Shown: positions 18,074 to 31,366 of the stretch, in pieces
Position numbering within the stretch: the first letter of the stretch is position 1
Layout of the letters: every line of letters begins with the position of its first letter
Assembly: GCA_003241965.1 (NCBI GenBank)
Contig: QBMB01000044.1
Coordinates: 1 to 36,239 of the forward strand
Reading direction: 5' to 3'
Source: Burkholderiales bacterium
Lineage (GTDB): Bacteria; Pseudomonadota; Gammaproteobacteria; Burkholderiales; Burkholderiaceae_C
DNA: 36,239 nucleotides
Program-made: the position numbers and the translations under genes
The notes under the pieces: model-generated
Database searches by the model: none
What the model saw: only the letters and a program-made list of their open reading frames with translations
What the model was told of the DNA's origin: nothing

Positions 18074-19378
18074 TCAGCACTTGGCGCCTTTGAAGCCGCT
18101 CTTGATCCAGTCTTCGGTCTTCATGTCGGCTGGCGGATTCACGCACTCGGCGGGGAATCGCATGATGTCCACCAGATCTACCCGCTTCTTCTCCGGGTTG
18201 TACTTGGTGGTACCGATGGCGGTGTCCTGGATGGCCTGTTGTCCCTTGCCATTGGCCATGCGGATCATGCCGGCGGGAGACTCCCAGGAGGAGCCGCGCA
18301 GGGCTGCAGCGAGCTGTTCGTGGTTGGGCTTCTTGCCACCGTTGGCGGTCATGGCCTTTTCAACTGCCAGCTTCAGGCCCATCAGGCTTTGAGCCATGCG
18401 GTAAGGAGCCTGCACGGGGATGACCTTTTCGCGGTCCTCGTACAGCTTGAACCACCAACGGTTCAGTGGGGTGTCAGGCGACATCAGGCCATAAGCACCG
18501 CGAGCACCCAGGATCACACCATCGGGCATTTTGTCGCCCAGCCCCGGCAACACATGGTCACCCGCTGAAAGGACCAGCTGCGAGCGCCGCATTACACCGC
18601 GCGGAGCGGCTTGCAGAACAAACGACTGCAGGTCGCCACCCCAGAGACTGGAGTGCGTGACGCTGGCCGGCGAGGAAAGCAGCGCAGAGATTTCCGTGCC
18701 GTACTGTCCGGCACCAAACTTGGGACGCAGGTCCTGGCCCGTTTTGGCTTGTGGGAACAGTTGCTCAGTCGTCAGTTGGAAGTCCTTGAGCGAATCGTGA
18801 CCCCAGGCGTAGTCCTGGTTGATGTAATTGATGGTTTCGACCTTGGCGTTCTTGGCCTTCAAGTAGCGACCGAGCGAGACGTTGTCCATCGCGGCATGCG
18901 CGGCCGTTCGGAAGACATAGCTGTAGTCACGCTCTTCAAAAATGCGGGGGGTTCCGCAGTCGTACAGGATCAGGAAACGTTTCATTTCTTCGGCCACGGG
19001 TGCCACAGCCAGGCAGTCGCCCGAGCCGACGTAACCCACCACCGCATCCACCTTTTCGCGGTCGTACAGATTGCGCAGTTCCTGCACCTGTTTGGTTGCA
19101 CCGCCGGCCTCGTCCACGTAGACGGCCTCAATTCGCATTCCACCAAAGCCCTTGGTGTCGTAGGGTGCAGGGGCCTGGCCATTGTTGAAGGCCTCAACAA
19201 GCAGCTTGGCCCCGTTCACAGCAGGAATGCCGAAGCTGTCCGCCGCCTGCCCAGAGAGAAAACTGACAATACCGACCCTGAAAGTTTCCTGCGCTTGCAC
19301 CTGGGTGGACAAGCCGGCCCCCATCAACATTGCCGCAGCGACCGCCGACAGCTTCACCAACAGTTTGTTCCGTCTCAT
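18074..19378 (-). CDS. livK: HAAT-family ABC substrate-binding protein (LivK-like)
   Basis: A 434-aa periplasmic binding protein of the Leu/Ile/Val-binding (type I, HAAT) family. It has a Sec signal peptide ending AQAQE near residue 30 and then the fold's first strand, RVGIVSFLSGQAADSFG. It is longer than amino-acid binders (about 370 aa), as is typical for members that bind aromatic or other organic acids. The start is taken at the ATG (19378), which has AGGAG seven bases before it; a GTG at 19381 is less well spaced. It heads the operon livK-H-M-G-F-ligase. The substrate is not determined; the ligase gene makes an organic acid more likely than an amino acid. Confidence 0.85.
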   Translation of the reverse strand: MRRNKLLVKLSAVAAAMLMGAGLSTQVQAQETFRVGIVSFLSGQAADSFGIPAVNGAKLLVEAFNNGQAPAPYDTKGFGGMRIEAVYVDEAGGATKQVQELRNLYDREKVDAVVGYVGSGDCLAVAPVAEEMKRFLILYDCGTPRIFEERDYSYVFRTAAHAAMDNVSLGRYLKAKNAKVETINYINQDYAWGHDSLKDFQLTTEQLFPQAKTGQDLRPKFGAGQYGTEISALLSSPASVTHSSLWGGDLQSFVLQAAPRGVMRRSQLVLSAGDHVLPGLGDKMPDGVILGARGAYGLMSPDTPLNRWWFKLYEDREKVIPVQAPYRMAQSLMGLKLAVEKAMTANGGKKPNHEQLAAALRGSSWESPAGMIRMANGKGQQAIQDTAIGTTKYNPEKKRVDLVDIMRFPAECVNPPADMKTEDWIKSGFKGAKC

Positions 19379-22184: not shown

Positions 22185-22856
22185 TCAAGCTTGGCGGCGA
22201 CGAATAGCCGCGCCCATCAGGCCCAGGCCGGCCAGCAACATGGCATAGGTTTCCGGCTCGGGCACCAGCGAAGGTGAGCCGATCTCCAACCCCGAGGCGA
22301 TCACAAACGCGCCGTTGACGCCTGCCGTGCTGAGTGTGCTCAAGGTCACATTGTTCAGGCCGGCCGAGTTGTCGAAGGTCTGGTAGGGCGACGAGGCGTC
22401 GGATGCACCAAAGTCAACACGAGCTTCAAGTGCACCAGCAGCGTTGTAGATGTTCACCGCGTCGCCGCCGGTGCCGAACCCAATGCCTGCACCGCTGTAG
22501 GTGCCCACCACCACGCCGGCATACGACGGGGAACCGAACCAGTTGTTCAGGAAGTTGCTGGCGGTGGCGGCGTTGCTTTCGATGAAGATCACCGACTGAC
22601 CCGCACCAATGCTGGAGACGCCGGTCAGGGCCAGTGCCGAACCAAACGCGTTGGAGTTGTCGTCCACTTTCCAGCCCGTGATGTCAACAGCGGACGCGCC
22701 CAGGTTGGTGAGTTCGAACCAGTCGGCAGCCACCACGGAGTTGCCGCTGCTCCACGGAGCAACTTCGGTGATGCGGACCTGTGCGCTGGCGGCGGTGGCC
22801 GTCAGCACGAGGGCCGACAACAGGGTGGACAAGGAGAGTGTTGAACGCAGTGACAT
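22185..22856 (-). CDS. PEP-CTERM protein with lamin-tail domain
   Basis: A 223-aa exported protein. The signal peptide ends near AASAQ (residue 25). It is followed directly by a lamin-tail (LTD) domain: VRITEVAPWSSGN, then DWFELTNLGASAVDITGWKV and SIGAGQSVIFIES, an Ig-like beta fold found in many secreted bacterial proteins. The C-terminus is a PEP-CTERM anchor, VPEPETYAMLLAGLGLMG with RRRQA. The LTD may bind other matrix components; its ligand is unknown. First gene of a two-gene unit with the SdiA-regulated-like protein. A TGGTCC dyad lies 107 bp upstream. Confidence 0.85.
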   Translation of the reverse strand: MSLRSTLSLSTLLSALVLTATAASAQVRITEVAPWSSGNSVVAADWFELTNLGASAVDITGWKVDDNSNAFGSALALTGVSSIGAGQSVIFIESNAATASNFLNNWFGSPSYAGVVVGTYSGAGIGFGTGGDAVNIYNAAGALEARVDFGASDASSPYQTFDNSAGLNNVTLSTLSTAGVNGAFVIASGLEIGSPSLVPEPETYAMLLAGLGLMGAAIRRRQA

Positions 22857-22891: not shown

Positions 22892-22942
22892 AAACCGCCG
22901 TGCATGCCCTGCGAGACTAAGCAAGGCATGCAACGGCGGTTT
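22892..22942 (-). terminator. Long hairpin between two PEP-CTERM transcription units
   Basis: AAACCGCCG-T-GCATGCC pairs with GGCATGC-AA-CGGCGGTTT, giving a 9-bp plus 7-bp stem with a small internal loop. It lies 50 bp beyond the stop at 22992 and is followed on the minus strand by TTTCGCCATTTC. It may end transcription from the phoX/PEP-CTERM unit, or act in the leader of the lamin-tail gene. Confidence 0.5.
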
Positions 22943-22963
22943 GACAAAGTTCCCACGCAGAGA

Positions 22964-22979
22964 TGGTCCGAATGGACCA
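22964..22979. promoter_or_regulatory. Conserved dyad TGGTCCGAATGGACCA, site 1
   Basis: This perfect dyad extends to GATGGTCC-GAAT-GGACCATC (22962-22981) and, with one mismatched pair, to 30 bp (22957-22986). It is 107 bp upstream of the lamin-tail PEP-CTERM start. A TTGTCA sequence (22947-22942, minus strand), a possible -35, lies about 24 bp downstream of its centre. This is the spacing of an activator site near -61. Related sites occur at 25256, 26179, 26201 and 30571. Confidence 0.6.
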
Positions 22980-22991
22980 TCCCTGCAGAAC

Positions 22992-23567
22992 TCAGGCTTG
23001 GCGGCGGCGGCGCGTGATCCAACCCACCATGCCCAGGCCGCTGAGCAGCAGGGCCAGCGTCTCGGGCTCCGGCACGGCCGAGACCGTGATGTTGAGCGTG
23101 TCGCCCGCGTTCAGGCCGAGGATGGTCCAGTCCAGGCGGCCAGCGCCTGCGAAGAGCGGGTCGCCGATCTCGACATCCAGAAACTCCAGCGGGGAGAACG
23201 ACACGGTGGCGTTGCCACCGTTGAAGTCGATCACGCTGGTGCCGCCGAACTGGCGTGTCACCGTGCCCAATGAGCCGAAGCTGCCCGAGCTGAGACCGAA
23301 GGTGTAGCCCTCCAGGCCGGCGCCGGTGAAGTTGCGCAGCATGGCGTTCAGCGACAGGCCGCCCACGTCCATGGCACCGATGGTGTAACCCAGCGTGGCC
23401 GAGGTGATGGACGAGAAGTCGATGTCGAAGGAGATCAGGCCATCGACGCTGTAGTCGGCCACGGTGGCCGGGGTGCTGCCGACAACCCCGGTGAACGTAG
23501 CAGCGTGGGCAGGAGCAAGACCGGCCAAAGACAGGGCTGCAGCGAGGGCGAGGAGGTGTTTGTTCAT
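22992..23567 (-). CDS. PEP-CTERM surface protein, unknown domain
   Basis: A 191-aa exported protein. The signal peptide MNKHLLALAAALSLAGLAPAHA is followed by about 140 residues rich in Gly, Ser, Thr, Phe and Leu, which look like beta strands and match no domain I know. It ends in a PEP-CTERM anchor (VPEPETLALLLSGLGMVG, then RRRRQA). The ATG at 23567 lies 27 bp after the phoX stop, so the two are one operon. The frame upstream of this ATG belongs to the phoX shadow. No strong Shine-Dalgarno sequence is seen, so translation may depend on phoX. Confidence 0.82.
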   Translation of the reverse strand: MNKHLLALAAALSLAGLAPAHAATFTGVVGSTPATVADYSVDGLISFDIDFSSITSATLGYTIGAMDVGGLSLNAMLRNFTGAGLEGYTFGLSSGSFGSLGTVTRQFGGTSVIDFNGGNATVSFSPLEFLDVEIGDPLFAGAGRLDWTILGLNAGDTLNITVSAVPEPETLALLLSGLGMVGWITRRRRQA

Positions 23568-23593
23568 GGTGTTCGGTGTTGGTTTGGTTGGGT

Positions 23594-25141
23594 TCACAGG
23601 GTGCCTTTGGTCCACGGGCCGGTGATGGCCAGCGTGACGCCGGTGTAGAGGTTGACGAACAGCACACGACCGTCGGGGCTGAACACGCTGCCCGCCCATT
23701 CGGTGTTGCGCTGGTTGCCGGCGGTAGCGCCGGTTTTGCCCACGGCGTCGAGCTGGGCGCGCGTGAAGTTGTAGTTGTGCTTGGCGAAGATGTAGCTGCG
23801 GCCGTTGGGCGCCAGCACCTTGAGGTGTTGCGACACGATGGCCGCGCTGGTGGGGCTGCCGTCGCCACCGTCTTCGTTGAACAGCAGTCCACCACGCGGG
23901 CTGATGCAGATGTTGTCGGGCGAGTTGCCCACCACACGATCGCGGCTCACGAAGATGGCCTTGAGCACCATGGTGGCCAGGTCCAGCGACCAGATCACGC
24001 CGGCGCGGGCAGGTGCCGTGGCGGTGGCGGAGCTGGTGGCCTTGTCGGTGAAGAACACCACACCGTTGGCGACCCAGCAACCCTCGTTGGCGCCGAAGAT
24101 GGCGCCGCCGTTGGCATAGGCACCACGGAACGGGCCGCTGCCCGTAACGGTGCCCGCCGTGGTGCTGATGGATGCGCGGTCGGCATCGGGATCGGCGATC
24201 TCAACCCAATCGCACTGGAACTCCTGGCACAGCGTGGGATAGCGCAGATCGGCACCGGGCTGTCCGCGCACGGCCAGGCCCTGCATGCGGCCACCCTCGT
24301 GCAGTGAGCCCAGGCCACCGTTGATGTTGTTCGGCAGGAAACGGTACAAGGTGTTCGCACTGCCCTGGTCTTCCGTGAGGTACCAGTAGCCGGTGTCCAG
24401 GTCGAGCGCGCTGGCTTCGTGCGCCATGCGGCCCATGTCGACGATGGGGGTCACATTGGCCGCGTTCTGGCTGGTATCGGCCGGGATCTCGAAGATGTAG
24501 CCGTGCTTCTTGCCGGTGGTGCTGATGCTGTTGCTGCCGATTTCTTCGTTGCTGAGCCAGCTGCCCCAGCTCGACGAGCCGCCAGCACAGGGGCGGTAGA
24601 TGCCGCCGAAGGTGGCGTAGCTTTCCACCCAGTTGCCGTCGCGGAACACCAGGTTGGTGTTGCCACCGATCTGGTAGCTGCCGCCGGTCAAGCCGGTGTC
24701 GTACTTGGCCACGGCGGCACGGCCAGCGCCGATCATGTTGTTGGCGTTGGTGGACAGGGCCTGCTCGTGGTTGCGCACCAGGATGATTTCGCTGCTGCGG
24801 CCGACACGGCGCGACACCACCACGCCCATGCCGTCGTGTGCGCCCGGTGTTGGCAGGCCGTCGCTCATGACGTCGCCGCGCCAGCCGTAACTCTTGTAGG
24901 TGAAACCGGCGGGCAGTTCGATCAGGGGCAGGCCCGTGGTGATGTCGTTCACAGGCGCCGTGGGGCCGTAGGGGCTGGCGACCACGGAGGACGCATCGGC
25001 CGGCGCGCAGTTGCTGCCGTAGCCTTGGTCAATGGTGTTGGCCATTGCGGTGACGGGGCCGGTGAACGCTGCGGTGATGGCTGCGGCACCGCCACCGATC
25101 AACAGGTTGCGGCGGGAGAGTTCGGGTTGCTGGTCGGACAT
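23594..25141 (-). CDS. PhoX-family (DUF839) Tat-exported alkaline phosphatase-like protein
   Basis: A 515-aa protein of the PhoX/DUF839 family; characterised PhoX enzymes are Ca/Fe-dependent phosphomonoesterases. It has a Tat-type signal (SRRNLLIGGGAAAITAAF, residues 9-26). Family blocks include ILVRNHEQ, CAGGSSSWGSWLSNEEIG, AHEASALDLDTGYWYLTEDQ and GLLFNEDGGDG. The PhoX core is acid-rich around these, in line with metal binding. Start at the ATG at 25141 (MSDQQPEL), the position that places the twin-arginine motif correctly. It is followed by a PEP-CTERM gene and preceded by a TGGTCC dyad and a TTGACA sequence (25241-25236), a possible -35. Activity and substrate are inferred. Confidence 0.82.
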   Translation of the reverse strand: MSDQQPELSRRNLLIGGGAAAITAAFTGPVTAMANTIDQGYGSNCAPADASSVVASPYGPTAPVNDITTGLPLIELPAGFTYKSYGWRGDVMSDGLPTPGAHDGMGVVVSRRVGRSSEIILVRNHEQALSTNANNMIGAGRAAVAKYDTGLTGGSYQIGGNTNLVFRDGNWVESYATFGGIYRPCAGGSSSWGSWLSNEEIGSNSISTTGKKHGYIFEIPADTSQNAANVTPIVDMGRMAHEASALDLDTGYWYLTEDQGSANTLYRFLPNNINGGLGSLHEGGRMQGLAVRGQPGADLRYPTLCQEFQCDWVEIADPDADRASISTTAGTVTGSGPFRGAYANGGAIFGANEGCWVANGVVFFTDKATSSATATAPARAGVIWSLDLATMVLKAIFVSRDRVVGNSPDNICISPRGGLLFNEDGGDGSPTSAAIVSQHLKVLAPNGRSYIFAKHNYNFTRAQLDAVGKTGATAGNQRNTEWAGSVFSPDGRVLFVNLYTGVTLAITGPWTKGTL

Positions 25142-25255
25142 GGAGCTGACTTTCGTGGGGTTGGACACAGGTGTCAGCTTGGCGCGGTGCATTGAAACCA
25201 CGGTGACAGGCCCGCTGGCGTTTGGCCTTGTTATGTGTCAACTGTTCCACGGGCA

Positions 25256-25271
25256 TGGTCCGATCGGCTCA
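25256..25271. promoter_or_regulatory. Conserved dyad TGGTCCGATCGGCTCA, site 2
   Basis: It lies 115 bp upstream of the phoX-like start, in the gap after dsbC. It is flanked by GGGCA and TGCCC, so the full element GGGCATG...CATGCCC (25251-25276) can fold. Site 5 at 30571 has the same outer GGGCAT/ATGCC arms. TTGACA starts about 22 bp from its centre. Confidence 0.55.
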
Positions 25272-25285
25272 TGCCCACCCGCAGC

Positions 25286-26113
25286 TCAACGGACGCTGGC
25301 CTGCAGCGCTTGCTCGATGGCTGGTGCACCGACCGCACCGGCGATGCGCAGGCCGCTGGGCGTGAACATGGTGGGTGTGCCGCTCACGCGGTACTTGTTG
25401 GCCAGCGCGGTGTTGCGGTCCAGCGCCTGCAGGTCGCATTTCGCCGAGTCCATCAAAGGCGGCATGTCCTTCATCACCTCGTTCCAGGCCTTGCTGCGAT
25501 CGGCCGCGCACCAGATCGCCTCGTTCATCGCACGCGACTGCGGCCCGAGGAAAGAGACCGGAAAGGTGTAGAGCACCAGGTCGGGCACATCCTTGAGCGT
25601 CTGGTGCAGCCGCTTGCAAAACCCGCAGCGCGGATCTTCGAACGTCACCAGCACACGGCCCGGCAGCTCGCGCCCGTTGACGATCTTGATGGCATCGGCC
25701 AGGTCGAGTTGCTGGATGTCCAGCACCGGCGTGGTGGCAACTTCATGCTCTTGCTTGCGCCGGGCCGTCACCGAAGTTCGGGTGGCCACTTCCACCACCT
25801 GCCCATCCACCAGGTGGGTGCCGGTGGAATCGATGTACAGGATGTTGCCGTTGACGATCACTTCAAACAGGCCCGCGATGGGTGACGGTGCGATCGATTC
25901 CACCTTGGCACCCACCAGACGCTCGACCACAGCGGAGAGTGCCTGGGTGTCTGGCGCAGCGGTCTGGGCCGTGGCGGGCACAGCCATCAGGAAGGAAGCG
26001 CAGGCCAGTGCGGCGCTGCAGAACGCGGTGCGCAGGGTGCGGCCTTGGAAGATGCCTTGAAAGAGGCCGGGGAAGATGGCGATGTTCATGGTGCAGGTCT
26101 GTTCGGAGCTCAT
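25286..26113 (-). CDS. DsbC-family thiol:disulfide interchange protein
   Basis: A 275-aa periplasmic protein of the DsbC/DsbG family, which reshuffles wrong disulfides in exported proteins and is kept reduced by DsbD. A signal peptide (hydrophobic core about 28-46, cleavage near AQT) is followed by the cystatin-like dimerisation domain (about 55-125). The thioredoxin fold follows, with active site C163-G-F-C166 and the cis-proline loop GTPTMF near residue 250. The usual DsbC site is CGYC, so Phe replaces Tyr. The start may be 26113 or 26089; neither has a clear Shine-Dalgarno sequence. It is placed between EPS and surface-protein genes, with two TGGTCC dyads upstream, and may serve their export. 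Confidence 0.85.
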   Translation of the reverse strand: MSSEQTCTMNIAIFPGLFQGIFQGRTLRTAFCSAALACASFLMAVPATAQTAAPDTQALSAVVERLVGAKVESIAPSPIAGLFEVIVNGNILYIDSTGTHLVDGQVVEVATRTSVTARRKQEHEVATTPVLDIQQLDLADAIKIVNGRELPGRVLVTFEDPRCGFCKRLHQTLKDVPDLVLYTFPVSFLGPQSRAMNEAIWCAADRSKAWNEVMKDMPPLMDSAKCDLQALDRNTALANKYRVSGTPTMFTPSGLRIAGAVGAPAIEQALQASVR

Positions 26114-26178
26114 GAGCGAGCGGTGCAGGCATGCTGCGCCGCCGATGTGACACCCACCCGAAAACCGCGGCCGCCCGA

Positions 26179-26216
26179 TGATCCGAACGGATGACGACCA
26201 TGGGCCAAACGGACCA
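26179..26216. promoter_or_regulatory. Two tandem dyads, sites 3 and 4 (22 bp apart)
   Basis: TGATCCGAACGGATGA (26179-26194) and TGGGCCAAACGGACCA (26201-26216) share the pattern TGnnCC-nAAC-GGAnnA. They are 22 bp apart, two turns of the helix. They fill the dsbC-manC gap, 66-103 bp upstream of dsbC. The even spacing suggests cooperative binding of a dimeric regulator. Confidence 0.58.
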
Positions 26217-26218
26217 TC

Positions 26219-27700
26219 TCAAACCACCGGGCTGCGTCCGTACACGTCCTCGAACCGCACGATGTCATCCTCGCCCAGATACGAACCTGACTGAACTTCA
26301 ATCATCTCCAGGTCAAAGCGGCCCGGGTTCTCCAGCCGGTGCACCTGGCCCAGCGGAATGTAGGTGGACTCGTTTTCGGTGAGCAGGAACTGGCGCTCAC
26401 CGCAGGTGACCTGGGCGGCGCCCTTCACCACAATCCAGTGTTCAGCGCGGTGGTGGTGCATCTGCAGCGACAAGGCCGCGCCGGGTTTCACGAGGATGCG
26501 TTTGACCTGAAACCGGGGCCCGGCGTCCACGCTGTCGTACCAGCCCCAGGGGCGGTGAACCTTGCGGTGCATTTGCCACTCGCCCCGCCCGTCCCGCTTG
26601 AGCTGCTCCACGACCTGCTTCACATCCTGCGCGCGGTCCTTGTGCATCACCAGCACAGCGTCCGCCGTCTCCACCACCACCAGGTTGTCCACCCCGCAGC
26701 AACTCACCAGACGCCGCTGCGACAGCACCAGGGAGTTGTGCGAGTCCACCATGACCACGTCACCGGCCACTGCGTTGCCCTGCGCGTCCTTGGGCAGCGC
26801 TTGCCAGACCGCGTTCCAGGCGCCCACGTCGGACCAGCCTGCCTCCAGTGCCACCACCACACCGGCGGGCAGTGCCGGGTGCCGCGCGCCCTCGCCCACC
26901 AGGCGCTCCATCACCGCGTAGTCGATGGAGTCGCTCGGGCAGGCGGCAAACAAGGCCGCCGGCACGCGCACAAAATCCTGGTCGGTGCTGCGCGAGCTCC
27001 ACGCGGCTTCCACCGCCGCAGCCATGGCCGGCTGGCAGATGTGCAACGCCGACATCCACACCGAAGCCCGCACCATGAACAGGCCCGCATTCCACAGGTG
27101 ATCGCCCGATTGCAGGAAACTCCCGGCCGTCGCGCTGTCGGGTTTTTCAGTAAACCGCCGGATCGACCACGCAAGGCCAGCCGCCCCTGGCTCCAAGGGC
27201 AATTCCTCGCCAAACTGGATGTAGCCATAGGCGGTCTCGGCAGAGGTGGGCTGAACGCCGAACGTCACCATGGCGCCCGCCAGCGCCAGCGGCACCGCCC
27301 GCTGCACAGCCTGGCCGAAGGCCTCCGTGTCCTGCACGATGTGGTCGGCCGGCATCACCAGCAGCAGTGGGTCTTCGTGCTCCTCCAGCGCTTCGAGCGC
27401 AGCCAGCGCCATGGCCGGCGCGGTGTTTCGCCCCATGGGCTCCAGCACGATGCGGCCCGGGCGCTGCATTTGCAGCAACTGCTCGGCGATCACGAAGCGG
27501 TGACCCTCACCGCAGACGATCAAAGGGGGCGCCACGTTCATCCCCGGCAGATCGACCACCCGGCGCAGCGTGGCCTGCAGCAACGAATCGGTGCCAATGA
27601 GGGAGAGCAGCTGTTTTGGATACTGGTCTCGCGACAACGGCCACAGCCGGGTGCCGGAACCACCCGAGAGCACCACGGGCAGGACGGTCAGGGAAGTCAT
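26219..27700 (-). CDS. manC: Mannose-1-phosphate guanylyltransferase / mannose-6-phosphate isomerase
   Basis: A 493-aa bifunctional ManC/AlgA-type enzyme making GDP-mannose for polysaccharide. The N-terminal nucleotidyltransferase has the pyrophosphorylase motif LSGGSGTRLWPLSR (residues 11-24) with YPKQ, plus FTEKPD and WNAGLFMVRA. The C-terminal type II isomerase cupin shows RPWGWYDSVD, then KPGAALSLQMHHHRAEHWIV with its metal-binding Gln/His set. The start at 27700 has GGAG five bases upstream; the longer open frame is the divergent control region. It is divergent from the EPS-initiating transferase across 202 bp. It implies mannose- or GDP-mannose-derived sugars in the EPS. Confidence 0.93.
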   Translation of the reverse strand: MTSLTVLPVVLSGGSGTRLWPLSRDQYPKQLLSLIGTDSLLQATLRRVVDLPGMNVAPPLIVCGEGHRFVIAEQLLQMQRPGRIVLEPMGRNTAPAMALAALEALEEHEDPLLLVMPADHIVQDTEAFGQAVQRAVPLALAGAMVTFGVQPTSAETAYGYIQFGEELPLEPGAAGLAWSIRRFTEKPDSATAGSFLQSGDHLWNAGLFMVRASVWMSALHICQPAMAAAVEAAWSSRSTDQDFVRVPAALFAACPSDSIDYAVMERLVGEGARHPALPAGVVVALEAGWSDVGAWNAVWQALPKDAQGNAVAGDVVMVDSHNSLVLSQRRLVSCCGVDNLVVVETADAVLVMHKDRAQDVKQVVEQLKRDGRGEWQMHRKVHRPWGWYDSVDAGPRFQVKRILVKPGAALSLQMHHHRAEHWIVVKGAAQVTCGERQFLLTENESTYIPLGQVHRLENPGRFDLEMIEVQSGSYLGEDDIVRFEDVYGRSPVV

Positions 27701-27902
27701 GGGGTCTCCGCCAAAAAAAAGCCAATGTAGGTTGCCTGCGTGTGCGCCTGATGACACAACGGAGGCAGCGCTCATCTCTGGCCGACACCGCATTCAAGAT
27801 GTCACAAACGGCGATCAAACTCGGCATCCCAGTTCTGCATCCTTGATCACAGACCGACCGATTTCCGTTCGCTGCGAAGCTTGCTGCACCGAGGGAGCTG
27901 CC
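27701..27902. promoter_or_regulatory. Divergent control region between manC and the EPS transferase gene
   Basis: A 202-bp region with no gene. TGTCACAAACGGCGAT (27800-27815) is a partial match (about 9 of 16) to the TGGTCC dyad. It is about 100 bp from manC and 88 bp from the transferase start, the same distance as in the better sites. No confident -35/-10 pair is visible. Confidence 0.35.
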
Positions 27903-29324
27903 TTGTCCGACACATCCGCTTCAGCCTCATCCACCGGCAACATCCACCGCGACGCGCGAGGCGCCTCCAGCCGCGGCAGCCTGCTGCGCGCGCTGGAAAC
28001 GTCCCTGAGCCCCTTGGTGGGCGTGGCTTGCCTTTGGGCACTGGCCCTGCGCATGGATGGCGGCATCTACACCGAATACTTCCTGCTGGGTCTGGGGGTG
28101 TTTGCCCTCACCTACCCCGGACCTTCGCGCTTGACGCTGTCGCCGCGGGCCACCCTCATCGACGTGCTGCTGAGCTGGGGCACCACCATGGGCCTGCTGC
28201 TCGCCGCCGGCTGGGTGACCGGCTACATGCGCGCGTTTTCGCTGGATGTCATCTCGACCTGGACCGTGATCACGCCGGTGGTCGATGGCGCAGCCTGGTT
28301 CGTGCTGCAGCGAACGGCGCCGGCGCTGGTGCGGCTGCAGGGTCCGCCGGAGCGGGCACTGGTGGTGGGCATGAACCACCAGGGCCTGGCGCTGGCGGAC
28401 AACCTGGGCGCCACCCGGTTCAACAACATCGAGGTGGTGGGATTCGTCGACGACCGAAGCCGCGAACGGCTGCAGGCCGACCCCCGCTTCAGCCTGCTGG
28501 GACGCTTCGATCACCTGACCGAAGTGATCAACAGCCAGCGCATCAGCCTGATCTACATTTCGCTGCCCATGGCTTCCCAGCCGCGCATCCTGAAGATTCT
28601 GGACGACCTCAAGGACACCACAGCATCGATCTACTTCGTGCCCGACATGTTCGTGACCGACCTGATCCAGAGCAAACCCACCGTGTTGTGTGGTGTCCCG
28701 GTCATCTCGGTCTGTGACACCCCCTTCCAGGGTGTCAACGGCCTGCTCAAGCGCGGCAGCGATGTGGTGCTCTCCTCGCTCATTCTGGTGGCACTGGCGC
28801 CGCTGTTGCTGGTGATCGCGCTCGCCGTCAAGCTGGGCTCGCCCGGGCCCGTGATCTTCAAGCAGCGCCGCTATGGCCAGGAGGGTGAAGAGATCGTGGT
28901 CTACAAATTTCGCTCGATGACGGTGGCCGAAGACGGCCCCGACATCCGCCAGGCCCAACGTGACGACAAGCGCATCACGCGCCTGGGCGCCTTCCTGCGC
29001 AAGACCTCGCTGGACGAACTGCCGCAGTTCATCAACGTGCTGCAGGGCCGCATGAGCATCGTGGGCCCACGTCCACACGCCGTGGCTCACAACGAGCTCT
29101 ACCGCAAGCTCATCAAGGGCTACATGGTCCGGCACAAGGTCAAGCCCGGCATCACCGGCTGGGCGCAGGTCAACGGCTTCCGGGGCGAGACCGACACCCT
29201 GGAAAAAATGGAAGGCCGCATCGAACGCGACCTGGACTACCTGCGCAACTGGTCGCTCAAGCTGGACATGCTGATCATCCTCAAGACCGTTCGGCTCGTG
29301 TTCAAGGACCAGTCGGCCTTCTGA
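27903..29324 (+). CDS. EPS-initiating polyprenyl glycosylphosphotransferase (WcaJ/EpsB type)
   Basis: A 473-aa inner-membrane enzyme that would transfer a hexose-1-phosphate, probably glucose-1-P, to undecaprenyl phosphate, the first step of EPS repeat-unit synthesis. The N-terminal third has about four membrane segments. A Rossmann-like middle domain ([18 protein letters not shown], about 155-172) follows, then a further hydrophobic segment (about 288-312) and the catalytic domain. The catalytic domain has [20 protein letters not shown], the [20 protein letters not shown] block and [13 protein letters not shown] start it at a TTG (27903), since GAGGGAG lies five bases upstream, no in-frame ATG is nearby, and 473 aa fits the family length. 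The downstream epsL-like gene begins 2 bases after the stop. Confidence 0.9.
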
Positions 29325-29326
29325 AC

Positions 29327-30550
29327 ATGCACCTCCGTTTTTCAAGCCGCCCTGCGCGCAGGGTTCTCGCACTGCTGGTCATCTGCACAAGTCCCGTGGC
29401 ACTGGCGCAGACCGCGGACGGTCTGACCTTGACCGCAGCCTACTCACTGCGGCACGACGACAACCTGTTTCGCCTGCCCGATGGCGTGGACGCACAAGCC
29501 GCGCTGGGGCGCCCCAGTGCGGCCGAGACCATCGACATCTCGTCCGTGGGGCTGCGCTACGGCAAGAGCCACAGCCTTCAGCGCATCGAGCTGGGCGTGA
29601 GCCTGGTGGACTACCGCTACCGCACCTACAGCCGCCTGGATCTGCTGGCCACCAACTACGACGTCACCTGGCGCTGGGCGCTCACGCCCCGACTGCGCGG
29701 TACGTTGGTGGCAGAGCGGGACGAGAGTGTGAACAGCTTCAACGACACCAGCGTGCTGACCCGCGGCAACCAGCGCGTGCGACGCTACCAGGGCTTTGAC
29801 GCCCAGTACGAGTTGGACGGCCTCTGGCGTCTGGTGGGTGGCGTGCAGAGCACACGCAACCAGAACGAGCAGCCCCTGGTGGGGGAAGACAGCTACACCT
29901 TGCGCTCGGTGGATATGGGCCTGCGCTACGAGGCGCGCTCAGGCAGTTCGGTCACCGCCCGGCTGCGAAACGGCAGCGGCAACACCTTCAACGGTGCCGT
30001 GCTTCCTTCCACCCTGCGCGACGAAGAGTTCAACCAGCGCGAACAGGTGCTCGACGTGCGCTGGCTGCTGAGCGAAAAAACCACCGCCGAGCTCAACCTG
30101 GTGCACTTTGACCGCACCCACGCCCGCCTGGCCCTGCGCGACTACAGCGGCACCAACACGGCGCTCTCGCTGCGCTGGGCCGCCACCGCCAAGACGCTGT
30201 GGACGCTGCAATGGGCCTCCGACCTCTCCAGCTACCAGACCACGAACGCCAGCTACGCCCGCACCGAACGGCTCACCGCCACCGGGCTGTGGCAGGTGGC
30301 GGCACGCACCAGCCTGCAAGCCAGCGTGAGCGAATCGCGCCGCCGTTACCTGGGCGCGCCGCCCGGGCAACAGCCCGACACACAACGCGACGCCACCCGC
30401 GACGCCTCACTGGGCTTGCGCTGGAACGCCACCCGCAACCTCTCGCTCAACGCTTCGCTGCAGCGCACGCAACGCAGCGGGAACCGCCCGGGCATCGCTT
30501 TCTCCAGCACCCAGGCGGTGGTGGGTGTGAGCCTGCTGACGAACCCCTGA
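29327..30550 (+). CDS. epsL: EpsL-like outer-membrane beta-barrel of an EPS/PEP-CTERM locus
   Basis: A 407-aa exported protein. The signal peptide MHLRFSSRPARRVLALLVICTSPVALA is followed by a chain of alternating beta strands with aromatic girdles (LTAAYSLRHDDNLFRLPDG, then RIELGVSLVDYRYRTY). The last strand, ending SSTQAVVGVSLLTNP, lacks the usual final Phe. This resembles the EpsL family found with the EPS/exosortase clusters of betaproteobacteria such as Methylobacillus, where it may help export or anchor the polymer. It is coupled to the transferase gene (2-bp gap). A role in EPS passage is inferred from family and position. Confidence 0.75.
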   Translation: MHLRFSSRPARRVLALLVICTSPVALAQTADGLTLTAAYSLRHDDNLFRLPDGVDAQAALGRPSAAETIDISSVGLRYGKSHSLQRIELGVSLVDYRYRTYSRLDLLATNYDVTWRWALTPRLRGTLVAERDESVNSFNDTSVLTRGNQRVRRYQGFDAQYELDGLWRLVGGVQSTRNQNEQPLVGEDSYTLRSVDMGLRYEARSGSSVTARLRNGSGNTFNGAVLPSTLRDEEFNQREQVLDVRWLLSEKTTAELNLVHFDRTHARLALRDYSGTNTALSLRWAATAKTLWTLQWASDLSSYQTTNASYARTERLTATGLWQVAARTSLQASVSESRRRYLGAPPGQQPDTQRDATRDASLGLRWNATRNLSLNASLQRTQRSGNRPGIAFSSTQAVVGVSLLTNP

Positions 30551-30570
30551 GGCCTCGGCAGCGTCGGGCA

Positions 30571-30586
30571 TCCTCCAAACGGATCA
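30571..30586. promoter_or_regulatory. Diverged dyad TCCTCCAAACGGATCA, site 5
   Basis: It lies about 91-106 bp before the ATG of the next PEP-CTERM gene. The core CCAAACGGA equals that of site 4, and the outer arms GGGCAT/ATGCC equal those of site 2. The left half is degenerate. Between it and the start are small inverted repeats GTAAG-CAAA-CTTAC (30627-30640) and CAACAGG/CCTGTTG (30640-30667), the latter ending next to the Shine-Dalgarno sequence. Confidence 0.45.
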
Positions 30587-30676
30587 ATGCCGTGCCGACT
30601 GCCTGCAAACACCCGCGCAACACACCGTAAGCAAACTTACAACAGGAATATGTTTTCCTGCCTGTTGGAGTCTTTG

Positions 30677-31366
30677 ATGAAAAAGCTTGTTCTTGTCCTG
30701 ACCCTGGTCGCCGCAGCCGCAGGCGCCTCGGCCGCCACCTTCACCAACGTACCCAGTGGCGCGAACACAGGTTCGCCGTTCGCATCCTTCGGCAACTCCC
30801 CGAATCCCAGCGGGGACTCTCCCCAGGTCGGCCAGGTGTTCTCGTTGATCTCGGCAGAAACCTTGTCGTCTTTCAGCTTTTACGCTCTCGGCAACGTGTT
30901 GGCTCCCTTGCAGCTCACTGTGGCCCAGTGGAACCCCGCCACGAACGCCAAAAATCAGTCGGTCAATGTCGTCGGCCCGTCCCTGCTGACCACCTCGGGT
31001 GCCGTCGAGACATTCAATTCGGTTGGCGGTTTCACCACACTCACGTTCGACAACCTCGGGCTGAACCTGAGCTCCGGCACCAAGTACGTCGCCTACCTGA
31101 CCAGCACCGATCCGCTGGTGACGGGCATCCAGTTGTCGCGCACCCAGACGACGCTGGACACGACCGGTTTTGGCATCGGCAACGCTTACCTCAGCACCAT
31201 TCCCGGTCAGGGCTGGCAGTTGCCGTTCAACGGCAACGGTTTCTTGAGCCTGCAGTACACCGCCGTCACCACGCCCGTGCCCGAGCCAGAAACCTACGCC
31301 ATGCTGCTGGCCGGTCTGGGGTTGATGGGAGCCATCTCACGCCGTCGCAAGAATCGGGCGGTCTGA
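30677..31366 (+). CDS. PEP-CTERM surface protein next to EPS genes
   Basis: A 229-aa exported protein. It starts at the ATG at 30677 with GGAG six bases upstream. The signal peptide (MKKLVLVLTLVAAAAGASA) is followed by about 180 residues rich in Ser, Thr, Asn and Gly with beta character (SPFASFGNSPNPSGDSPQVG, QTTLDTTGFGIGNAYLSTIP), and no named domain I can assign. The PEP-CTERM anchor VPEPETYAMLLAGLGLMG with RRRKNRAV closes it. Its position 126 bp after the EpsL-like gene suggests that it is a matrix protein of the same EPS, sorted by an exosortase encoded elsewhere. It seems to have its own promoter region. Confidence 0.85.
   Translation: MKKLVLVLTLVAAAAGASAATFTNVPSGANTGSPFASFGNSPNPSGDSPQVGQVFSLISAETLSSFSFYALGNVLAPLQLTVAQWNPATNAKNQSVNVVGPSLLTTSGAVETFNSVGGFTTLTFDNLGLNLSSGTKYVAYLTSTDPLVTGIQLSRTQTTLDTTGFGIGNAYLSTIPGQGWQLPFNGNGFLSLQYTAVTTPVPEPETYAMLLAGLGLMGAISRRRKNRAV

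Follow-up and report, generated by a model that had tools for sequence, protein, structure and literature searches.

The contig QBMB01000044.1 of a Burkholderiales bacterium (assembly GCA_003241965.1), called the window here and analysed over its whole 36,239 nucleotides, carries genes for exopolysaccharide (EPS) synthesis, PEP-CTERM proteins, the alkaline phosphatase PhoX and the thiol-disulfide isomerase DsbC. Five copies of an inverted repeat (dyad) lie around these genes. An earlier note on this DNA had described the repeat as TGGTCC-N4-GGACCA and attributed it to one dimeric regulator without naming a protein. We studied what the dyads are and which protein may bind them, with EpsA of the LuxR family as the candidate. 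The five sites are the following.

22963 to 22980, minus strand: site 1, ATGGTCCGAATGGACCAT, predicted EpsA operator 106 bp upstream of the gene for a lamin-tail domain (LTD)/PEP-CTERM protein (22185 to 22856, minus strand)
25255 to 25272, minus strand: site 2, ATGGTCCGATCGGCTCAT, predicted operator upstream of phoX (likely start 25141, minus strand)
26178 to 26195, minus strand: site 3, ATGATCCGAACGGATGAC, predicted operator upstream of dsbC (likely start 26089, minus strand)
26200 to 26217, minus strand: site 4, ATGGGCCAAACGGACCAT, second predicted dsbC operator, 22 bp from site 3
30570 to 30587, plus strand: site 5, ATCCTCCAAACGGATCAA, 89 bp upstream of a PEP-CTERM gene (likely start 30677, plus strand)

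The genes and the promoter element around these sites are given below. The genes were called with a simple caller and their starts are therefore approximate. No tRNA genes were found in the window.

22185 to 22856, minus strand: LTD and PEP-CTERM protein (Pfam)
22914 to 22946, minus strand: Pho-type promoter TGTCA-N22-TAGTCT, between site 1 and the LTD/PEP-CTERM gene (pattern scan)
22992 to 23567, minus strand: PEP-CTERM protein, gene ending just before site 1 (Pfam)
23594 to 25201, minus strand: PhoX alkaline phosphatase, longest reading frame, likely start 25141 (Pfam)
25286 to 26113, minus strand: DsbC thiol-disulfide isomerase, longest reading frame, likely start 26089 (Pfam)
26219 to 27700, minus strand: ManC, mannose-1-phosphate guanylyltransferase/mannose-6-phosphate isomerase (profile search)
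27903 to 29324, plus strand: WcaJ-type EPS glucose-phosphate transferase (profile search, scanned as the longer frame 27570 to 29324)
29327 to 30550, plus strand: EpsL, XrtB/PEP-CTERM-associated outer-membrane protein, TIGR03014 (profile search)
30587 to 31366, plus strand: PEP-CTERM protein, longest reading frame, likely start 30677 (Pfam)

The five dyads are real. All of the 16-bp sites were found where the earlier note had placed them, in gaps between called genes. As it had also described, the starts of sites 3 and 4 are separated by 22 bp, and a congener carries this 22-bp pair in its orthologous gap too (L085:10323 and 10345); the outer arms GGGCAT/ATGCC are common to sites 2 and 5. Between the 18-bp site and the likely ATG lie 106 bp (site 1), 113 bp (site 2), 88 bp (site 3), 110 bp (site 4) and 89 bp (site 5). 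If the longest frames are taken instead, the distance would shrink to 53 bp for site 2 and 64 bp for site 3. The weaker half-matches suggested near 27800 and 20935 found no support, with best scores of −11.2 and −2.2 bits.

The window was scanned with a matrix of 20 strings, obtained by a pattern search of 60 congeners and including window sites. Exactly five places reached at least 15 bits, whereas 100 first-order Markov simulations gave a mean of 0.06. When the matrix was built from the sites of other genomes only, sites 1, 4, 3 and 2 ranked on top in the window. Since this matrix scored site 5 (15.5 bits) level with an in-gene match at 18251 (15.9 bits), we consider site 5 less secure than the other four.

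The earlier note had held that a motif found at background density across the genome would speak against a regulon. Background density was observed genome-wide for the bare consensus, whereas a refined form was rare and lay on contigs with EPS and PEP-CTERM genes. With up to one mismatch, TGGTCC-N4-GGACCA occurred at 34 places in this genome, compared to 87 for the reversed control; with up to three mismatches it occurred 41 times in the window, where 22.5 were expected. The refined pattern ATNNTCCRAAYGGANNAT gave six matches in 4.9 Mb at up to one mismatch and none for the control: sites 1, 3, 4 and 5 in the window, one place on contig C152 and one on C122. All six are on three contigs bearing EPS/PEP-CTERM genes. 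Since the pattern was drawn from window sites, its concentration there is in part a product of how it was made; the matches on C152 and C122 are independent of this. The wider pattern ATGGTCCRWWYGGACCAT, with up to three mismatches, was found at 14 places, compared to three for the control. Six of these lie on C116 and C122 and none on C152, the three contigs making up 3.1% of the genome (binomial p 2e-6). Another one (C169:11842) is located 81 bp ahead of a second phoX gene, and the other seven off-contig places score lower, three of them inside genes. The specificity is in the dyad centre and the outer letters, not in the bare consensus.

The position relative to genes was analysed with 62 distinct sites of at least 18 bits, a set that includes the matrix training sites and related genomes. 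Six sites were in called genes and 56 were intergenic. Among the latter, 41 lay in co-directional gaps, 13 in divergent gaps (11 once two TTCGTCC-type sites are left out) and none in convergent gaps, and two lacked a called gene on one side. At the co-directional sites, the sense-strand centre was TT in 31 cases and AA in eight, with a median of 114 bp to the next start. With 13 divergent and no convergent gaps, the dyads look like promoter elements and not like terminators. Genes for CoA-transferase, thioesterase and further acyl-CoA functions have dyads of the type TTCGTCC-N4-GGACGAA in front of them (L053:1587 and L087:6989; also L053:8647 and 9651); the core of these dyads is similar, but they probably belong to another regulator.

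Conservation was followed in the orthologous gaps of congeners, as the earlier note had suggested, and the dyad was kept there while the flanks changed. The congener G001 has the cluster in the same order. The window manC (26219 to 27700) sits between dsbC and wcaJ; in G001, neither manC nor the last PEP-CTERM gene has a BLAST match at its place. Gap 1 of G001 contains a perfect dyad, TGGTCCATTCGGACCA (L052:16881), with outer arms and flanks different from those of site 1. The downstream start is 106 bp away in both genomes, whereas the upstream gene ends at 11 bp from site 1 and at 52 bp from its counterpart. The dsbC gap of G001 carries CCATCCATTCGGACCA; the counterparts of site 3 are L052:13642, L054:10078 and L085:10323, and G022 has a perfect dyad ahead of its dsbC counterpart. 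In the phoX gap of G001 a degenerate TGGGCCGTTTGGGTGA was found, and both counterparts of site 2 (L052:14549 and L085:9416) are degenerate. No dyad was seen in the site-5 gap of G001, and the site 5 counterpart in G048 (L085:14755) reached 11.3 bits.

Dyads were also found at other loci. Counterparts of the C152 site precede a DUF2341/ExbB-type gene in G001, G022, G008 and G074. In G022 (L054:465-500), two GTCCGATCGG-type dyads combine into a larger inverted repeat upstream of a DUF2341-type gene. At a second locus (C122 in this genome; L084, L086, L089 and L101), dyads stand ahead of gspG, and a further dyad is located between a phoB-like gene and pstS in G044 and in this genome (C122:6467, where the downstream genes are pstS-epsD). 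Two congeners have dyads upstream of wcaJ (L085, L088). Control of EPS genes, which the earlier note had considered, is supported by the dyads at C122:6467 and before wcaJ, but not by the half-site at 27800. On C122 (L135:1306-4474), a nuclease-like gene behind a dyad was called as two pieces; its counterpart in L095 is one frame of 1053 amino acids. An identical perfect dyad, ATAGTCCATTTGGACTAT, occurs at L098:7983 and L102:7839, in a stretch shared by two EpsA-negative congeners with few called genes around.

This genome encodes EpsA on C152 (TIGR03020, 218.2 bits, cut-off 170) and exosortase B, XrtB, on C122 (399.7 bits, cut-off 275). The C-terminal GerE/LuxR helix-turn-helix PF00196 is present in this EpsA and in all 36 aligned EpsA proteins. 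The gene just before epsA (L138:17659-18213) was called in two pieces; in L110 it is one frame of 174 amino acids. EpsA exceeded the cut-off in eight of the 60 congeners (G000, G001, G008, G022, G044, G048, G073 and G074), the same eight in which dyads were found before EPS, PEP-CTERM or related genes, a match that was noted post hoc. The pattern search of the 60 congeners gave 76 matches at 73 places and seven for a reversed control that was not composition-matched, and 42 of the 73 places are in EpsA-negative genomes. These 42 places belong to 24 other congeners; 13 of them were checked and nine were inside called genes. Matches with zero mismatches were found in 5/8 EpsA-positive and 3/52 EpsA-negative congeners (p 5e-4). 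Among 300 genomes of the order, where EpsA was scored positive at E 1e-35 or better, the exact TRGTCCRWWYGGACYA was present in 17/54 EpsA-positive and 10/246 EpsA-negative genomes (p 4.6e-8).

Besides G000 and G001, 15 EpsA-positive genomes contain the exact dyad; larger stretches were taken from ten of them and short loci from five. In the larger stretches 20 of 21 exact dyads are intergenic. Five of the dyads have a neighbour with a Pfam PEP-CTERM match (L272, L276, L278, L279, L281), nine more a neighbour whose tail is PEP-CTERM-like by eye, and four are next to genes for PhoX (L273), LTD or LTD/nuclease (L271, L282) and ShlB-type (L275) proteins; three (L267, L268, L284) have no such neighbour. 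In the short loci, the dyad of G270 precedes a PEP-CTERM-like gene, and the other four are uninformative or by other genes. The matrix was also applied to 72 EpsA loci of Hydrogenophaga, Rhodoferax, Methyloversatilis, Denitromonas, Nitrosospira, Rugamonas, Duganella and others. It found 41 places of at least 15 bits, 37 of them intergenic, whereas 30 column-permuted matrices gave a mean of 4.4 and a maximum of 19. Hydrogenophaga-like loci account for five of the 41 places, and some of the others are repeats among close relatives.

Several of the promoters have a Pho-type layout. In 13 of 37 regions, the pattern TGTMA-N22-TANNNT was found on the downstream side of the dyad, compared to an average of 0.03 in mononucleotide shuffles; when spacers from 14 to 31 were tried, the sole other match was one at 27. 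The window and the C122 and C152 stretches contain 52 upstream regions of 80 bp or more; four of these have the pattern, three behind dyads and the dyad-free one of manC. The layout found at the LTD/PEP-CTERM gene of the window recurs in L052, L085 and L099. Since the same layout, with a tandem TGTCA, precedes the pstS...phoU-phoB genes of this genome, we read it as a Pho promoter; it resembles the layout of the Escherichia coli phoA promoter. Counted from the −10 element of this promoter, the dyad centre would lie near −58 (DUF2341), −64 (LTD/PEP-CTERM) and −90 (gspG), in upstream activator positions that are not all on the same helix face. Two response regulators of this genome exceed the PhoB cut-off, one beside pstS in the EPS locus (C122:5727-6404) and one in the canonical pst-phoU-phoB run (C11:56354-57016).

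Some observations weigh against a matrix regulon of EpsA. The 20-string matrix includes four strings from EpsA-negative genomes and two of the TTCGTCC type. The exact dyad is absent from 37 of the 54 EpsA-positive genomes of the order, and in the ten EpsA-negative genomes that have it, it lies by unrelated genes in six, has no called gene nearby in three and is inside a gene in one. The reversed control was mildly enriched too (7/54 compared to 10/246, p 0.019), so lineage composition adds something. In an unbiased dyad search of 66 other EpsA loci, TAGTCC-N4-GGACTA was found in only five, below dyads of related genomes; with 5-bp arms, TAGTC-N6-GACTA and GTCCG-N2-CGGAC tied for the top with nine loci each. 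This search, dominated by related genomes, gives weak support. No site of at least 8 bits was found upstream of either epsA or the adjacent gene in this genome. The Pho-type layout is limited to the LTD/PEP-CTERM, gspG and DUF2341 groups, three of 11, with none in the eight others. Finally, EpsA co-occurs with a whole gene cluster, and co-occurrence alone therefore cannot single it out.

Could the dyads act in RNA, as hairpins that terminate or stabilise transcripts at their 3' ends? All five window dyads start 1 to 23 bp past the end of an upstream gene, the outer arms lengthen the stem (13 nt at site 1, with 92% complementarity), and outside the 18-mer there is modest extra complementarity at offsets 1 to 3 (22, 24 and 27 of 57). 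However, of the 54 sites flanked by called genes none is convergent and 13 are divergent, where no transcript ends, and site 1 keeps its distance to the downstream start and not to the upstream gene end. Scans for terminators, promoters and RNA families showed nothing at the five sites, and no Rfam family reached the gathering score in the window. We regard hairpins as very improbable. The same judgement, only slightly milder, applies to a PhoB-like response regulator on C122, or canonical PhoB, as the binder. A phoB-like gene is next to both a dyad and pstS, and phosphate genes make up several of the targets, but the element matching the pst promoter of this genome is separate and outside the dyad, and PhoB binds direct repeats.

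PrsR, the sigma-54 enhancer-binding response regulator of PEP-CTERM genes, is encoded in this genome and has been tied to a motif upstream of such genes by phylogenetic profile, according to the excerpt of PMC1569441. However, motif 1 in that excerpt ends in TTTACA and is followed by a −24/−12 element, unlike these dyads. PrsR was found in 9/60 congeners, five of them without EpsA over the cut-off, and four of the eight dyad genomes (G022, G044, G073 and G074) have no match. Its distribution does not track the dyad, which largely refutes PrsR as the binder and makes it the most improbable of the candidates. A more serious alternative, though still an unlikely one, is that the dyads are bound by some other DNA-binding protein from the cluster that holds epsA, with EpsA a mere neighbour: EpsA co-occurs with the XrtB cluster, so that distribution cannot separate its members, and no dyad precedes epsA in this genome. 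Yet dyads are found again near epsA itself in other genera, and the DNA-binding domain of EpsA is closest to that of CviR, whose site shares the core.

Taken together, the dyad in front of matrix and phosphate-scavenging genes is very probably a real, conserved control site. The single dimeric regulator that the earlier note had proposed for PEP-CTERM proteins, PhoX, DsbC and perhaps EPS genes is supported by the specificity of the refined pattern, by the conservation in orthologous gaps and by the recurrence in distant EpsA-positive genomes. The relationship of EpsA to CviR and the positions, conservation and co-occurrence of the dyads were established by computation, and the evidence points to EpsA. 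We are therefore fairly confident that the dyads are operators of an XrtB/PEP-CTERM matrix regulon with EpsA as the presumed binder. EpsA would bind as a dimer to the 18-bp dyad ATRRTCC-RWWY-GGAYYAT and act mainly as an upstream activator, with dyads centred roughly 58 to 91 bp ahead of the transcription starts, as judged from the −10 element wherever a Pho-type promoter is present. Predicted targets in this genome are PEP-CTERM proteins, two PhoX phosphatases, DsbC, gspG and the secretion genes behind it, a gene of the DUF2341/ExbB type, the nuclease-like gene and a trypsin-like/PEP-CTERM pair, as well as pstS-epsD and the EPS genes that follow them.

Since several target promoters are of the Pho type, we propose joint control, in which phosphate limitation (through PhoB) and EpsA would together activate a phosphate-scavenging matrix. 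A wider proposal, which we put at slightly less than an even chance, is that EpsA governs a second, sigma-54-independent PEP-CTERM regulon across Betaproteobacteria; here a LuxR solo that has lost its tie to acyl-homoserine lactones would act with PhoB on composite promoters to build a phosphate-mining slime layer with phosphatases and nucleases in response to a cue and phosphate hunger.

Flocs and biofilms formed by environmental bacteria are linked to PEP-CTERM/exosortase systems. In the excerpts of PMC1569441, PMC9850573 and PMC3333781, the proteins named as controlling PEP-CTERM genes are response regulators, chiefly PrsK/PrsR with RpoN. The PrsR-linked motif was found by the same kind of reasoning as used here (excerpt of PMC1569441), one PEP-CTERM gene is RpoN-dependent (excerpt of PMC9850573), and in Desulfovibrio a response regulator is linked to PEP-CTERM genes (excerpt of PMC3333781); the excerpt of PMC4195743 contains nothing on a regulator. 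No described EpsA binding site was found in the open-licence papers searched for EpsA/exosortase, PEP-CTERM regulation, XrtB, methanolan/epsA and the dyad letters. With a defined predicted operator and a named candidate regulator, the control of XrtB-class systems becomes testable, and matrix genes can be listed from what lies in their promoters. The matrix may also serve to scavenge phosphate, as its link to Pho-type promoters suggests.

Among known systems, the EpsA family of NCBIfam (TIGR03020), an XrtB/PEP-CTERM-associated regulator, includes the protein of this genome as a member. Its closest relative in the PDB is CviR. The quorum-sensing boxes of CviR/CsuR in Chromobacterium, also of the LuxR family, are like the sites described here 16-bp dyads with the same central letters upstream of promoters, but differ in the outer letters (CTGNCC, compared to TGGTCC/TAGTCC here). 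The Pfam autoinducer domain PF03472 matched 2/36 EpsA proteins, with a best E of 0.09, and a response of EpsA to acyl-homoserine lactones is therefore doubtful; the predicted EpsA fold resembles such domains. The PEP-CTERM box of PrsK/PrsR and RpoN is likewise a shared cis-element upstream of PEP-CTERM genes with a regulator tied to it by phylogenetic profile (excerpts of PMC1569441 and PMC9850573), but there it is a sigma-54 promoter with a TTTACA-ended motif, whereas here it is a LuxR-type dyad, partly at Pho-type promoters and with another distribution. With the Pho regulon and its PhoB boxes, the targets PhoX and PstS are in common and several promoters share the layout of the pst promoter of this genome. 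The dyad, however, stands apart from the Pho element, and some of the matrix genes that it marks have no evident phosphate role. In conclusion, the dyads form a conserved operator family that marks a matrix regulon, most likely that of EpsA.

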